This document shows, piece by piece, positions 18,365 through 49,434 of a DNA stretch of 64,000 nt. The notes under the pieces were generated by a model. It made no database searches and had not been told where the DNA came from. It worked only from the letters and a program-made list of their open reading frames with translations. Source of the stretch: Bdellovibrio bacteriovorus str. Tiberius (GTDB taxonomy: Bacteria; Bdellovibrionota; Bdellovibrionia; Bdellovibrionales; Bdellovibrionaceae); assembly GCF_000317895.1 (NCBI RefSeq), contig NC_019567.1, positions 1,674,001 to 1,738,000 of the forward strand, written 5' to 3'. The stretch's first letter is position 1; every line of letters starts with the position of its first letter. Made by a program: the position numbers and the translations under genes.

Positions 18365-18432
18365 AGATTTGACCCTTCTTGTATTTAGTGTCACGGTTAA
18401 GGTCTATCAGGTCAAGAAGTGAGAGTTTATAT

Positions 18433-19248
18433 ATGACAAGCGCAAATGAGATTCCTTTGATAGTGACGATCCCCCATTCCGGCGAAAACGTTCCTGATCA
18501 AACGCCTTGGCTGAAGTCTTTGCCCGAGGAAGTTTTGATGTGCGACGTGGATCGCTTTGTCGACTTTCTGTATGAACCGACTTTGCACAAGCTGCATATT
18601 CCCTATGTGAAAACCGAGTGGCACCGCTATGCGGCCGATTTGAATCGGGTGCCTGAAGACGTGGACGCAACTTCCGTTATCGGCAACAGCAACCCGGCAG
18701 GCATGCACAACCGTGGCTTTCACTGGGTGATCACGACTTACAAACATCAGCTGATGAAAGAACCAATGTCCGTGGAGGCGCACAACGAACTGGTGAAACT
18801 GGTTTACGAGCCCTTCCATGCCGGCGTTCGCAAGCTGTATGCGGACTTGCACGAAAAAGGTTTTAAGAAAACTTATCACATTGATGCGCACAGCATGCCT
18901 TCTTTGGGGACCAGTGAACATCGCGATCCAGGCGAATTGAGAGCCGATATCGTTGTCAGCGACAGCAAAGGCAAAAGCTGTGATCCCCGCTTTAAAGATC
19001 TGGTGATTGCGGCCTATGCCTCTGCCGGATTCAAGGTCGGTTACAACTGGCCGTATTTTGGCGGACGCGTCACAGAGCAGTATGGCGATCCAAAACGCGA
19101 GCAGCATACACTGCAGGTGGAGCTGAATCGTTCGTTGTACATGGATGAAAAGACCAAAAAATTGAAGCCGGAAGAAGCGAAGAAAGTTCAGGAGAAGCTT
19201 CTGTCGGCCGTCAGTTATGTCCGCAACAATTTGCTGCATATAATGTAG
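18433..19248 (+). CDS. N-formylglutamate amidohydrolase family protein
   Basis: The family hydrolyses N-formyl-L-glutamate in histidine breakdown or related N-acyl amino acids. The 271-residue protein has the typical opening I-V-T-I-P-H-S-G (zinc-binding His/Ser region), D-V-D-R-F-V-D, the central H-I-D-A-H-S-M-P motif and a C-terminal V-E-L-N-R-S-L-Y. Length is normal for the family. ATG 18433 is preferred over upstream in-frame starts that would run into the divergent gene's promoter region. No other histidine-degradation gene is seen nearby, so the physiological substrate is uncertain. Confidence 0.9.
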   Translation: MTSANEIPLIVTIPHSGENVPDQTPWLKSLPEEVLMCDVDRFVDFLYEPTLHKLHIPYVKTEWHRYAADLNRVPEDVDATSVIGNSNPAGMHNRGFHWVITTYKHQLMKEPMSVEAHNELVKLVYEPFHAGVRKLYADLHEKGFKKTYHIDAHSMPSLGTSEHRDPGELRADIVVSDSKGKSCDPRFKDLVIAAYASAGFKVGYNWPYFGGRVTEQYGDPKREQHTLQVELNRSLYMDEKTKKLKPEEAKKVQEKLLSAVSYVRNNLLHIM

Positions 19249-19278
19249 GGCGTCGTAAAGCCAAAAAGCATGGTCTTA

Positions 19279-19342
19279 AAAGCCGATCTAAACTATTGAT
19301 AGCTATACCAAAATCAATAAGCTCTCAATAAGGATCGGCTTT
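19279..19342 (+). promoter_or_regulatory. Nested inverted repeats in the resB leader, covering its start
   Basis: AAAGCCGATC (19279-19288) is perfectly complementary to GATCGGCTTT (19333-19342), which contains part of the AAGGA ribosome site and the first two bases of the TTG start codon. Inside the loop, TATTGAT (19294-19300) pairs with ATCAATA (19313-19319). Such a fold would hide the start site of the respiratory block. The transcription start is unknown, so it may instead act at DNA level. Confidence 0.55.
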
Positions 19343-20756
19343 GGATAAATCCTCTGCGCCCCAAAAATCCCTGTTCAAAAGAATCAATAAGCCTTTGGCA
19401 TCGTTGAAGCTCGCGGTTTTCATCATCGTATCCCTGGCCGTGATCACCGCAGTGGGGACATTTGTTGAAGCCCGCTACGATGCTTATGCCGCTAAAAAAA
19501 CGGTTTACGACACATGGTACATGTACGGGATCATGGGCCTTTTGGTGATCAACTTGACGGCCGTGATGGCCGATCGCTGGCCGTGGAAAAAACGCCATGC
19601 CGCCTTTGTTTCAGCACACATCGGGATTATCATTTTGCTGGCGGGTTCGCTTCTGACTTGGAAGTGGGGCCTGGATGGTTCCATGCGTGTGGGGATTGGT
19701 GAATCCAACAACTTCGTGCAAACCGCTGAAACCGACATCGTTGTTTACACGTCGTTTGACGGGGACCGCTACACGAAAACTCTGGAACAGGAAGTGGACT
19801 TCTTTAAGAATCCGCCCACTGTTGAAAAGCCTTTCATCATTCCTGCGTATGAAGGTGAAATCAGAATTGTTGATTACAAAAAATACGTTGTTCCATCCAA
19901 GAAGGTGATCGAAGGCGAAGTCGGCAAATCCGGCGCGGGCCTGCGTTTCCAGCTTCAGAATGACAACGTGAATGTGATCGAATGGCTGGTTCAGAAAAAA
20001 CCGGGCAATCTGGTCAGTCATAATTTCGGCCCGGCGCAAATCTTTATGGGGCCGGCTCCAGAAAAACCTCGTGGTGCCAATGAAATCTTCCTGACTCCGG
20101 AAAAAGACGGTTTGAAATACGTGGTCTTCCAGAAAGACTCTGACAAGCCTTTGAAAAAAGGTTTTGTGAAAGAAGGCGACGTGTTTGATCCGGGCTTTAA
20201 AATGGCCCTGAACTTCCGCGTGCTGCGTTTCATGCAGGCCGCCCGTGAAGACTGGGATCTGCAGGATTCCAGCCGTCCCACGCCGCTGACCACTTCTGCG
20301 GTGAAAATCATCTTTGACGGCAAGGAAAACTGGGTTCTTCTGAATGACATGGTGAAGCTGTTCACCACGAATTCTGTGTACCTGTTGACGTACGGCAACC
20401 GCCGTATTGATTTGGGTTTCAATTTGAAGCTTAAGAAATTCGAAGTGGCCCGCTATCAGGGAACCATGCGTGCGGCGGCCTATGAAAGTCTGGTGGAAGT
20501 TCCGGACTTTGGCGAATATCTGATTTCGATGAACGAGCCTTTGAAATACAAAGGCTTGACCATCTATCAGGCGAGCTTCCAGGAGGAAGACGGGCGTCCG
20601 GTGGCCTCCATCTTCTCCATCAATCATGACCCGGGAAGATTCCTGAAATATCTGGGCTCATTGGTGCTTTCATTGGGTATCGTGCTGTTAATGTGGTTTA
20701 AACATCTGGACTTCAAACTTGCCCGTAAAACGGGAGCAGGGACGAAAGAATCATGA
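19341..20756 (+). CDS. resB: System II cytochrome c maturation protein ResB/Ccs1
   Basis: ResB works with CcsA to move haem across the membrane and attach it to apocytochromes c in the periplasm. The 471-residue protein begins at TTG 19341 (AAGGA 6 nt upstream). Membrane helices lie near residues 22-44, 62-80 and 90-110, followed by a large periplasmic domain (about 115-425) and a final helix near 430-450. The first helix region A-S-L-K-L-A-V-F-I-I and the C-terminal G-L-T-I-Y-Q-A-S-F are typical of the family. It overlaps ccsA (20753-20756, ATGA). It supplies the machinery needed by the multihaem cytochromes encoded downstream. Confidence 0.92.
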   Translation: MDKSSAPQKSLFKRINKPLASLKLAVFIIVSLAVITAVGTFVEARYDAYAAKKTVYDTWYMYGIMGLLVINLTAVMADRWPWKKRHAAFVSAHIGIIILLAGSLLTWKWGLDGSMRVGIGESNNFVQTAETDIVVYTSFDGDRYTKTLEQEVDFFKNPPTVEKPFIIPAYEGEIRIVDYKKYVVPSKKVIEGEVGKSGAGLRFQLQNDNVNVIEWLVQKKPGNLVSHNFGPAQIFMGPAPEKPRGANEIFLTPEKDGLKYVVFQKDSDKPLKKGFVKEGDVFDPGFKMALNFRVLRFMQAAREDWDLQDSSRPTPLTTSAVKIIFDGKENWVLLNDMVKLFTTNSVYLLTYGNRRIDLGFNLKLKKFEVARYQGTMRAAAYESLVEVPDFGEYLISMNEPLKYKGLTIYQASFQEEDGRPVASIFSINHDPGRFLKYLGSLVLSLGIVLLMWFKHLDFKLARKTGAGTKES

Positions 20757-22393
20757 AAAAAATATTTCTCATCATTGCTTCATTGTTGGTGACTTGTGCC
20801 GCTGTGGCCAAGCCCGGTGATCTGCTGAAATCCATGCCGGTTCAGGACGGCGGTCGTATCAAGCCTTACGACAGCTTCGCCAAAGAAATGCTGGAAATTG
20901 TCTATGGCAAAACCAAATTCGAAGGCCGCAATGCCACCGAAATCGTTTTGACGTGGATGCTGTCTCCGCAGGCGTGGGAAGGCAAAAAAATCTTTGAAGT
21001 GCGCAACCATCAGGTTTTGCAAGCGATGAATCTTCCGAAAGATCAGCGCTATTTTAACGGTGAAGAGCTGTTTGCCAACGAAAGATTCACCCTGCTTCGT
21101 CAGGAGCTTCAGGCCAAGCGTGAAACCAAGGAAAAGCTGGATCCTTATTTCCAGGCTTTGCAGCGCCTGGAAAATCAGTTCTTTGTATTTCAGGAAATCG
21201 CCGCCGGCCGCATGATGAAGGTCGCTCCTCCGAAAGAAGGCGACACGTGGCTTGCCGTGGCGGATTTGCCAGAACATCTTCAGGCTAAGTTCCTGGATGT
21301 GACCAAGGCCTTTGTGACTTATCTGGGTGTGATCGCGGAAAAAGGGGATTCTTCAGTTTCCGGCAAAGCTCTGGATGAAGCGGTTGCGGCGTTTGAGGCG
21401 GCAGCGCAAACAGAAAATCCGGCGTTGTACAGTCTGGGCGGCAAGATCACGGCGGAAGTTCACTATAATTCCTTCCATCCTTTCCGTTGGGCGTATGTGT
21501 TCTATTTCCTGGCGTTCATCGTGTTGTTGTTGGTGTGGGCTTTAAGTAAAGAGTCTCTGATGACGACAGCGTGGGTGCTGTTGGGGATCGGTTTTGCACT
21601 GAACACTTATGGATTTGGTTTGCGCATGTACATCATGGATCGCGCACCGGTATCCAATATGTATGAAACGGTTGTCTGGGTTGCCTGGGGAACGGTGTTG
21701 TTTGCGGCGATTTTGGAAATCATTTACAAATACAGATTGATTCTGGTGGCGGGGACTTTGGTGGCGGCCTTCGGTCTGGTGATCGCGGACTTTGCTCCAG
21801 CGGTTTTGGATCCTTCCTTGCAGCCGCTTGAGCCGGTTTTGCGCAGCAACTACTGGCTGACGATCCACGTGATGACAATCACTATCAGTTATGCGGCTTT
21901 CTTCCTGGCGTTCGGGTTGGGTGATCTGGGCTTGTTTTATTATTTGCGTGGTGAAGATAAACACCAGGCGCAGATCAAAGCCATCACCACCAGTATTTAT
22001 CGTGCTATGCAGATTGGTGTCGCGTTCCTGGCTCCGGGGATCATCCTTGGTGGTATCTGGGCCGATTACTCTTGGGGCCGCTTCTGGGGCTGGGATCCAA
22101 AAGAAACTTGGGCTTTGATCGCGTTGCTGGGTTATCTGGCGGTGTTGCATGCACGCTATGCGGGCATGTTGAAGCATTTCGGAATGGTAGTGACAGCGGT
22201 TATCACTTTCTCTTTGGTGATCATGGCGTGGTACGGAGTGAACTTTGTGCTTGGCGCGGGGCTTCATTCCTACGGCTTCGGTGCCGGTGGGGTTGAGTAT
22301 GTGTCTGCTTTCGTGGCAGCACACATGCTGTTAGTGGTTTATGTGAGTGTGATTAGACAAGGTAGAGGGAAAAAGGCGACGAAAGAGTCTTAA
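20753..22393 (+). CDS. ccsA: System II haem-handling protein CcsA/ResC
   Basis: CcsA carries haem to the periplasmic side for covalent attachment to CxxCH motifs. The 546-residue protein has a signal-like N-terminal helix, a periplasmic N-terminal domain of about 220 residues, then about eight membrane helices. The tryptophan-rich haem-binding loop W-G-R-F-W-G-W-D-P-K-E-T-W is near residues 443-455, and external histidines follow. The long N-terminal domain makes it larger than minimal CcsA proteins (about 300 residues). The start overlaps the resB stop, so synthesis is coupled. It is followed after about 175 bp by the act operon. Confidence 0.94.
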   Translation: MKKIFLIIASLLVTCAAVAKPGDLLKSMPVQDGGRIKPYDSFAKEMLEIVYGKTKFEGRNATEIVLTWMLSPQAWEGKKIFEVRNHQVLQAMNLPKDQRYFNGEELFANERFTLLRQELQAKRETKEKLDPYFQALQRLENQFFVFQEIAAGRMMKVAPPKEGDTWLAVADLPEHLQAKFLDVTKAFVTYLGVIAEKGDSSVSGKALDEAVAAFEAAAQTENPALYSLGGKITAEVHYNSFHPFRWAYVFYFLAFIVLLLVWALSKESLMTTAWVLLGIGFALNTYGFGLRMYIMDRAPVSNMYETVVWVAWGTVLFAAILEIIYKYRLILVAGTLVAAFGLVIADFAPAVLDPSLQPLEPVLRSNYWLTIHVMTITISYAAFFLAFGLGDLGLFYYLRGEDKHQAQIKAITTSIYRAMQIGVAFLAPGIILGGIWADYSWGRFWGWDPKETWALIALLGYLAVLHARYAGMLKHFGMVVTAVITFSLVIMAWYGVNFVLGAGLHSYGFGAGGVEYVSAFVAAHMLLVVYVSVIRQGRGKKATKES

Positions 22394-35143: not shown

Positions 35144-35174
35144 AACCCACATGAAAATGTGGGTTTTGTTTTTT
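35144..35174 (+). terminator. Intrinsic terminator after infC
   Basis: AACCCACAT (35144-35152) pairs with ATGTGGGTT (35157-35165) around a GAAA loop and is followed by T-rich sequence to 35174. It would end the thrS-infC transcript just before dtd, and confirms that rpmI-rplT are not in this operon. Confidence 0.85.
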
Positions 35175-48534: not shown

Positions 48535-49434
48535 TTGTCTTTGGTCTTCTCCGTTCCCGGAAAAACATTTATAGCTGGTGAATACCTGGCTCTGGCGGAA
48601 GGGCCGACGCTGTTCTTCTTGTCACAACCTTGCTTTGAAACGGAGATTTCCCGGGGCAAGGGTGATGTTCTGGGGATTCACCCGGACAGCCCGGCCGGTG
48701 TTTTCATGAGCAAACACCGGGGCTATTTCAGAAATTTCGATATCACATTCCGCGATGCTTATTCCGGCAAGGGCGGCTTTGGTGCCTCGACGGCGCAGTT
48801 CCTTTCTGTCTATGCGATGTGGCTTTATAAAGAGGCTCACCAAATGGACATGGAAAAGTACCTCGACTTCAAACACATGCTTGAAGTGTACTATCACGTG
48901 GCGTGGAACGGGCAGGGCCAGCGACCAAGTGGCGCGGACCTGGTGGCACAACTTAAAGGATCCATGACCTTCTTTGAAAAACGCCGCGGGATGATCTCGG
49001 TGGCCAGCTGGCCCTTTGATGATCTGGAGCTGTTGCTGGTGCATACCGGGAATAAGCTTGCGACGCATGAACACCTGCGCACGCTGCCGGTATTCCCGAT
49101 CCACGGGCTTGAAAGGGCCATGGGAACAATTCGTGAAGCCTTCAACAAGGTCGACAGTGAGCAGTTCATCGGGGGTGTGAAAGCCTATGCCGACGAACTT
49201 TTGAAACTGAATTTCACCTGCGAGCCGACCCTGAAGCTTCTTTCCGATATCAGGCAACTTCCCGGCGTAAAAGCGGCCAAAGGCTGTGGTGCTTTGGGTG
49301 TGGATGTGATGGCGATCATTGTGGCCAAAGGGGAAACTGCCGGCATTAAAAACTACTGTGAAAGCAAGGGCCTGTCCGTGCTTTCTTCCTCTGATAAAAT
49401 CTCGCTAGGACTTCAGGTCCGAGGAAGCCTATGA
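48535..49434 (+). CDS. Probable phosphomevalonate kinase (GHMP family)
   Basis: The 299-residue GHMP kinase starts at TTG 48535 with AGGAG upstream. It has V-F-S-V-P-G-K-T-F-I-A-G-E-Y at the N-terminus and the phosphate loop Y-S-G-K-G-G-F-G-A-S-T-A-Q (about residues 77-89). Later, G-C-G-A-L-G-V-D-V resembles the GHMP motif 3. With mevalonate kinase and diphosphomevalonate decarboxylase both clearly assigned to the following genes, phosphomevalonate kinase is the remaining step. It is shorter than eukaryotic PMK. The specific substrate is inferred from context. Confidence 0.82.
   Translation: MSLVFSVPGKTFIAGEYLALAEGPTLFFLSQPCFETEISRGKGDVLGIHPDSPAGVFMSKHRGYFRNFDITFRDAYSGKGGFGASTAQFLSVYAMWLYKEAHQMDMEKYLDFKHMLEVYYHVAWNGQGQRPSGADLVAQLKGSMTFFEKRRGMISVASWPFDDLELLLVHTGNKLATHEHLRTLPVFPIHGLERAMGTIREAFNKVDSEQFIGGVKAYADELLKLNFTCEPTLKLLSDIRQLPGVKAAKGCGALGVDVMAIIVAKGETAGIKNYCESKGLSVLSSSDKISLGLQVRGSL

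Follow-up and report, generated by a model that had tools for sequence, protein, structure and literature searches.

The resB start of Bdellovibrio bacteriovorus str. Tiberius is preceded by a sequence block that aligns without gaps across the genus and shows own-lineage complementarity to the start region of the gene. RNA pairing between the block and the resB start is probably under selection, since complementarity within a lineage exceeds that between lineages. We tentatively propose, with doubt slightly ahead of belief, that the block is an internal resB promoter whose DNA also encodes the inhibitory arm of a hairpin, and that the RNA reading through from the upstream gene is silent. The proposal is based on sequence comparison and fold prediction for a 64,000-nucleotide stretch of the chromosome, referred to as the window, and for the corresponding loci of related genomes, designated by L numbers.

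The gap between the FGase family gene and resB measures 92 nt in the window sequence (Table 1). The products of resB and of the resC/ccsA-like gene presumably act in the assembly of c-type cytochromes. A second ResB-like gene, at positions 2912339-2913706 of the same genome, is 44% identical to the resB of the window. A search of the phage collection with 19100-19500 gave no match. The window contains GCAAC-N5-GCTGC at 19223-19237; a perfect GCAAC-N5-GTTGC palindrome is present in L005, L017, L018 and L019, and in L017 and L018 it is not within the FGase frame.

Table 1 Features of the FGase-resB region, in window positions.
Feature	Position	Strand	Basis or remark
FGase family gene (N-formylglutamate amidohydrolase)	18379..19248	+	longest ORF; Pfam PF05013, E 8e-48
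GGCGTCGAA-like conserved element, GGCGTCGTA in the window	19249..19257	+	alignment; diverged in L005 and L023
Conserved AAAAGCRTRGTCA, with TRGTCA (19271-19276) as -35-like part	19264..19276	+	alignment
Outer stem, left arm (10 bp perfect; 11 with 19289), in the block spacer	19279..19289	+	
Conserved TAAAYTATTGATAGC, -10-like region and left strand of inner stem	19289..19303	+	putative promoter role
Putative transcription start of the internal promoter	19301..19306	+	-10 candidates
Inner stem, right strand; conserved RGCTNTCA ahead of the Shine-Dalgarno sequence	19320..19330	+	repeat search, fold, alignment
Shine-Dalgarno (SD) sequence AAGGA	19330..19334	+	sequence
Outer stem, right arm, over part of the SD sequence and the first two TTG bases	19332..19342	+	
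resB (system II cytochrome c assembly), TTG start	19341..20756	+	ORF list; Pfam PF05140, E 1.5e-18
resC/ccsA-like gene, overlapping the end of resB	20753..22393	+	ORF list; Pfam PF01578, E 3.3e-31

The perfect 10-bp inverted repeat described in an earlier note on this DNA is present in the sequence, with AAAGCCGATC (19279-19288) and GATCGGCTTT (19333-19342) separated by 44 nt. The second, 7-bp pair reported for the loop, TATTGAT (19294-19300) with ATCAATA (19313-19319), is found as well. In the predicted fold, the inner stem is a different one, within 19294-19304 and 19320-19330 (91% complementary over 11 nt), and pairing of 19289 with 19332 lengthens the outer stem to 11 pairs. The right arm reaches into the TTG codon (19341-19343), taking in its first two bases. 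By itself, the inverted repeat is ordinary and constitutes weak evidence: perfect 10-bp inverted repeats whose loops measure 3-60 nt number 13 in the window, compared with a mean of 3.55 expected from 20 Markov-1 simulations. The fold of the segment 19251-19360 has a z of -4.60, and none of 200 shuffles was equally good. With z = -4.02, the resB start has the second lowest value among 46 gene starts in the window (mean -0.74, sd 1.51), a set of first-possible ORF starts that may include further misassigned ones. The lowest value, -4.54 at 35151, reflects a terminator-like hairpin at a probably misassigned gene start. This hairpin comes after a gene which we take to be infC-like, and the affected gene, presumably dtd-like, probably has its true start at an internal ATG further downstream. 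The fold upstream of the gene start at 48535 is also strong (z -3.08).

The block was compared among 23 loci of the genus that have a close resB. The 24th genome, G009, was left out, as it provided only a match of 44% identity, perhaps to a paralogue. An FGase-like frame, recognised by its C-terminus, ends upstream of resB in all 23 loci. The aligned upstream regions share GGCGTCGAA, AAAAGCRTRGTCA and TTAAAYTATTGATAGC, and RGCTNTCA precedes the SD sequence in most of the loci that have a leader. The block is composed of TRGTC followed, at a fixed distance, by TATTGATA, and the alignment from 19264 to about 19301 is free of gaps in 23 of 23 loci. The spacer between the two elements is mostly near-random in sequence. 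The T, G, T and C of TRGTC are invariant in 19 of 19 nonredundant rows (L003, L006, L012 and L022 were dropped from the 23), and GATA of the second element is kept in 21 of 23 loci, having diverged in L015 and L023. The second element is followed by the resB start codon at distances that vary between loci from 16 to 92 nt. In L016, L020, L021 and L022, where no SD sequence was seen, an ATG lies 16 nt beyond the first base of this element, an arrangement that suits a transcription start just after the block. The leader is almost absent from these four loci, and their resB may be near-leaderless.

In 16 of 24 genomes, the block pattern occurs without mismatch at a single site, the one at resB, whereas a control pattern has no occurrence in the 24. 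Diverged forms of the block are present in seven more (L009, L015, L016 and L020-L023). Another pattern, for the spacing, was loosened by eye to admit L015 and L023; the alignment is independent of it. A search allowing up to three mismatches returned the block's own site and one other, at L040, compared with two matches of the control pattern. The L040 match is taken to be due to chance and overlaps, on the opposite strand, the start of a gene that we take to be HU-like. No further copies were found with up to three mismatches and a fixed N5, a pattern which also misses the window's own site.

The block resembles a fixed-spacing promoter, or an activator site combined with a -10 element. The A form of TRGTCA matches the -35 hexamer at four of six positions by reading, and TAAACT (19289-19294) or TATTGA (19294-19299) within TAAAYTATTGATAGC may serve as the -10 element. 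Pairing of the conserved TRGTCA with the start occurs in some lineages and is absent from others, which suits a role of this motif in DNA. The region 19100-19500 contains no sigma-70-like promoter at 9 of 12 matches to TTGACA-like and TATAAT-like hexamers placed 16-18 nt apart; the rRNA upstream region gave a 9-of-12 match. Of the leaders read, L013 alone has a complete FNR-type box (TTGAT-N4-ATCAA), which is therefore no feature of the genus; TTGAT-AGCT-ATCAA, formed there by the second element, is presumably FNR-like. A promoter of the attack-phase sigma-28 factor (FliA) was also considered and rejected: CCGATC at 19283-19288 is preceded by CAAAA (19262-19266) where TTAAG is expected, and CCGAT at 19283 is not conserved across the genus alignment. 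The FliA promoter of Bdellovibrio is given as TTAAG-N16-CCGATA in PMC3627812, where the transcription-start map covers the attack phase, without growth-phase starts.

The poor sigma-70 match also agrees with an ordinary cis-regulatory leader, in which all resB transcripts start upstream of 19249, the block is a recognition site in the RNA, and a protein, a small RNA, a ligand or ribosomes translating the FGase gene open the hairpin. The pairing evidence presented below is identical under this arrangement, and the block is absent elsewhere in the genomic places checked, as is expected of an element with a single target. TATAAT at 19239-19244 could provide the upstream start; however, it is part of the FGase coding sequence and is not conserved in L021 and L022. 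The pairing state of TRGTCA varies between lineages, unlike that of a fixed RNA fold, and the leader has no Rfam family. We consider such a leader unlikely, although a serious contender, and retain the internal promoter as the preferred reading of the block.

In the predicted MFE structures, the block and the start form at least 8 pairs in 15 of 23 genomes, representing 9 of 14 lineages (L001-3, L004, L005, L009, L011, L013, L014, the L016 group and L017/18). At most 4 pairs are formed in 8 of the 23 genomes and 5 of the 14 lineages (L006-8, L010/12, L015, L019 and L023), with none in L010, L012, L019 and L023. The pairing bases largely differ and shift between lineages. The arm of L001 is AAAGCCGATC; AGCGTGGTCTT pairs with AAGACACGCT in L004, GAAGATAGTCC with GGACATCTTC in L009, CGAGCCG with CGGCTCG in L011, and CATAGGGC with GCTCTATG in L016. 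The 19279-19288 arm is not conserved strictly by position: L004 has the same left arm and an altered right arm, and pairs differently. The arm covariation that the earlier note proposed to look for in relatives is found in a changed form: pairing is preserved in the 15 genomes, but by different and shifted base pairs. The fold z of a fixed window (-93 to +20) at resB averages -1.9 over the 14 lineages (-1.7 without L001-L003), and +0.9 at the resC starts of the same loci (n=23). In family members outside the genus (n=6), the resB fold z ranges from -0.8 to +1.0; one of the seven family loci, L029, was left out because its start is unclear.

For the block of each lineage, pairing with the start region of that lineage was compared with pairing to the start regions of the others. 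In the first test, which used 14 nt of the spacer and 16 rows (L003, L006 and L012 were left out as redundant, and L016, L020, L021 and L022 as leaderless), own-lineage pairing gave p 0.005, and 0.0485 without L001/L002. The wide-window, chimera and scan tests included all 23 loci in 14 lineages grouped by eye. In wider windows, own-lineage pairing exceeded cross-lineage pairing (median p 0.0015, and 0.002 when L001-L003 are left out), compared with p 0.09-0.79 for the controls; the complementary strand gave p 0.006, as expected from symmetry. Chimera folds have an own-lineage pairing excess with p 0-0.0035, and 6 of 14 lineages are strong individually, as judged by eye. The limits of the wider-window and chimera tests were chosen once folds had been seen; the surroundings are surveyed by a 110-cell scan. 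The combination of block and start is the strongest cell of the scan (z -3.19, uncorrected p 0.001; 0.013 without L001-L003), and one distant off-target cell also reaches an uncorrected p of 0.01. Leaving out one lineage at a time gives p 0.001-0.004 for block and start, removal of L001-3 and the L016 group gives 0.007, and additional removal of L009 gives 0.04. Chance as the entire explanation, which the repeat count alone could not exclude, is disfavoured by the chimera, wide-window and scan tests. The pairing of the upstream arm with the ribosome site and start, as claimed in the earlier note, is thus supported by the pairing tests, but a resB RNA that begins at the block may lack the arm.

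The block might instead be a promoter or operator without any RNA function, its repeats having arisen by chance or by template-switch mutation, a process that perfects inverted repeats without selection. The abundance of 10-bp repeats in the window, the freedom of the leader sequence to change, and the missing pairing in 5 of 14 lineages agree with this explanation. The own-lineage excess is, however, localised at the start region, save for the one far cell of the scan, and is not seen in the coding controls; coding sequence is constrained, so a mutational bias may remain. We regard the absence of an RNA function as improbable.

We hypothesize that resB is transcribed into two RNAs. An internal promoter would be located between the FGase gene and the resB start, and its DNA would at the same time encode the hairpin's 5' arm. 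RNA reading through from the FGase gene would carry the arm, which would pair with the SD sequence and the start codon, resulting in poor translation of resB. RNA initiated at the internal promoter would be without the arm, and its resB start would be more open. If transcription always started at the block, the RNA would not contain the arm, and selection could not act on pairing of the arm as RNA. If it always started upstream, the rigid spacing of the block, combined with lineage-variable pairing, would be unexplained. A silenced read-through RNA together with an arm-free RNA from the internal promoter would fit both constraints. Read-through is plausible in this model, as no terminator-like site was found in 19100-19500. 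The earlier note had held that a start downstream of 19288 removes the left arm from the RNA; this would apply to the RNA of the internal promoter, and not to the read-through RNA.

At 30 °C, the TTG of the long RNA has a predicted probability of 0.04 of being unpaired, compared with 0.58-0.62 when the RNA starts at 19301 or 19306; for the SD sequence, the predicted values are 0.22 in the long and about 0.40 in the short RNA. The cost of opening the ribosome site is at least 4 kcal/mol higher in the long than in the short RNA in 15 of 23 loci. The two-RNA model is favoured by this opening cost, the gap-free block with its variable distance to the start, the single-site pattern, the pairing tests and the precedent of phage T4. 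Against it count the only partly open start region of the short RNA, the poor match to sigma-70 promoters, the five lineages without the hairpin, the restriction of strong individual pairing to six lineages, the p values of 0.0485 and 0.04 in reduced sets, and the off-target cell of the scan. The switch by temperature, haem or a protein suggested in the earlier note finds little place here, and an RNA thermometer or haem-responsive element is highly improbable: the SD sequence and start are within a predicted stem and the genes presumably serve the assembly of c-type cytochromes, but predicted occlusion is near constant from 15 to 42 °C (TTG of the long RNA unpaired at 0.02 and 0.08, respectively), no Rfam family scored above threshold in 18900-19700, where the single match was at chance level (E 4.7), and neither a haem-related feature nor evidence of a ligand was seen.

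It is possible, if doubtful, that the two RNAs of resB constitute a chromosomal transcript-isoform switch, in which a genus-specific promoter encodes an inhibitory arm, preserved by differing base pairs in most lineages, and which perhaps tracks the switch between attack and growth phases. Read-through RNA produced in one state would then be silent for cytochrome assembly, and RNA from the promoter, produced in another state, would be translated. No paper on this resB leader was found in the literature searched. If the two-RNA model is true, the promoter DNA is doubly constrained, by promoter function and by complementarity to the start of its own gene, and a gene within an operon is insulated from read-through without a terminator. 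A classic device of phage T4 would thereby be extended to a bacterial respiratory operon. The model would also provide a search rule: look upstream of a gene for promoter DNA whose complementarity to that gene's start region holds in each lineage separately.

RNA thermometers that sequester the SD sequence and translational riboswitches hold the SD sequence or start in a stem when untranslated. The resB leader resembles them in the position of its SD sequence and start within a predicted stem, but differs in having no predicted temperature response, no constant aptamer seen and no Rfam match. In yeast, long undecoded transcript isoforms (LUTI) depend on upstream reading frames and chromatin. 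Like the proposed resB read-through RNA, they are longer RNAs that are made and remain untranslated; for resB, a hairpin is proposed instead of upstream reading frames and chromatin. According to PMC3014915, longer transcripts of the T4 lysozyme gene e hide the start, and late promoters are situated in the DNA that codes for the hairpin's 5' strand; T4 soc, 49 and I-TevI likewise have a hairpin in longer transcripts and a late promoter in the 5' strand. Unlike gene e as described there, resB belongs to a chromosomal operon with no phage involved and has no role in lysis or its timing, 5 of its 14 lineages are without the hairpin, and its promoter and transcripts are deduced from sequence. Sequestration of the SD sequence or start in the longer RNA, as in the T4 genes, is predicted for the window and 15 of 23 genomes, and not for the other 8. 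resB shares with gene e a start region that is, by prediction, sequestered in the longer RNA, a structure that is either kept or absent among relatives, and, if our model is correct, promoter DNA in the 5' strand that gives rise to an RNA without the arm.
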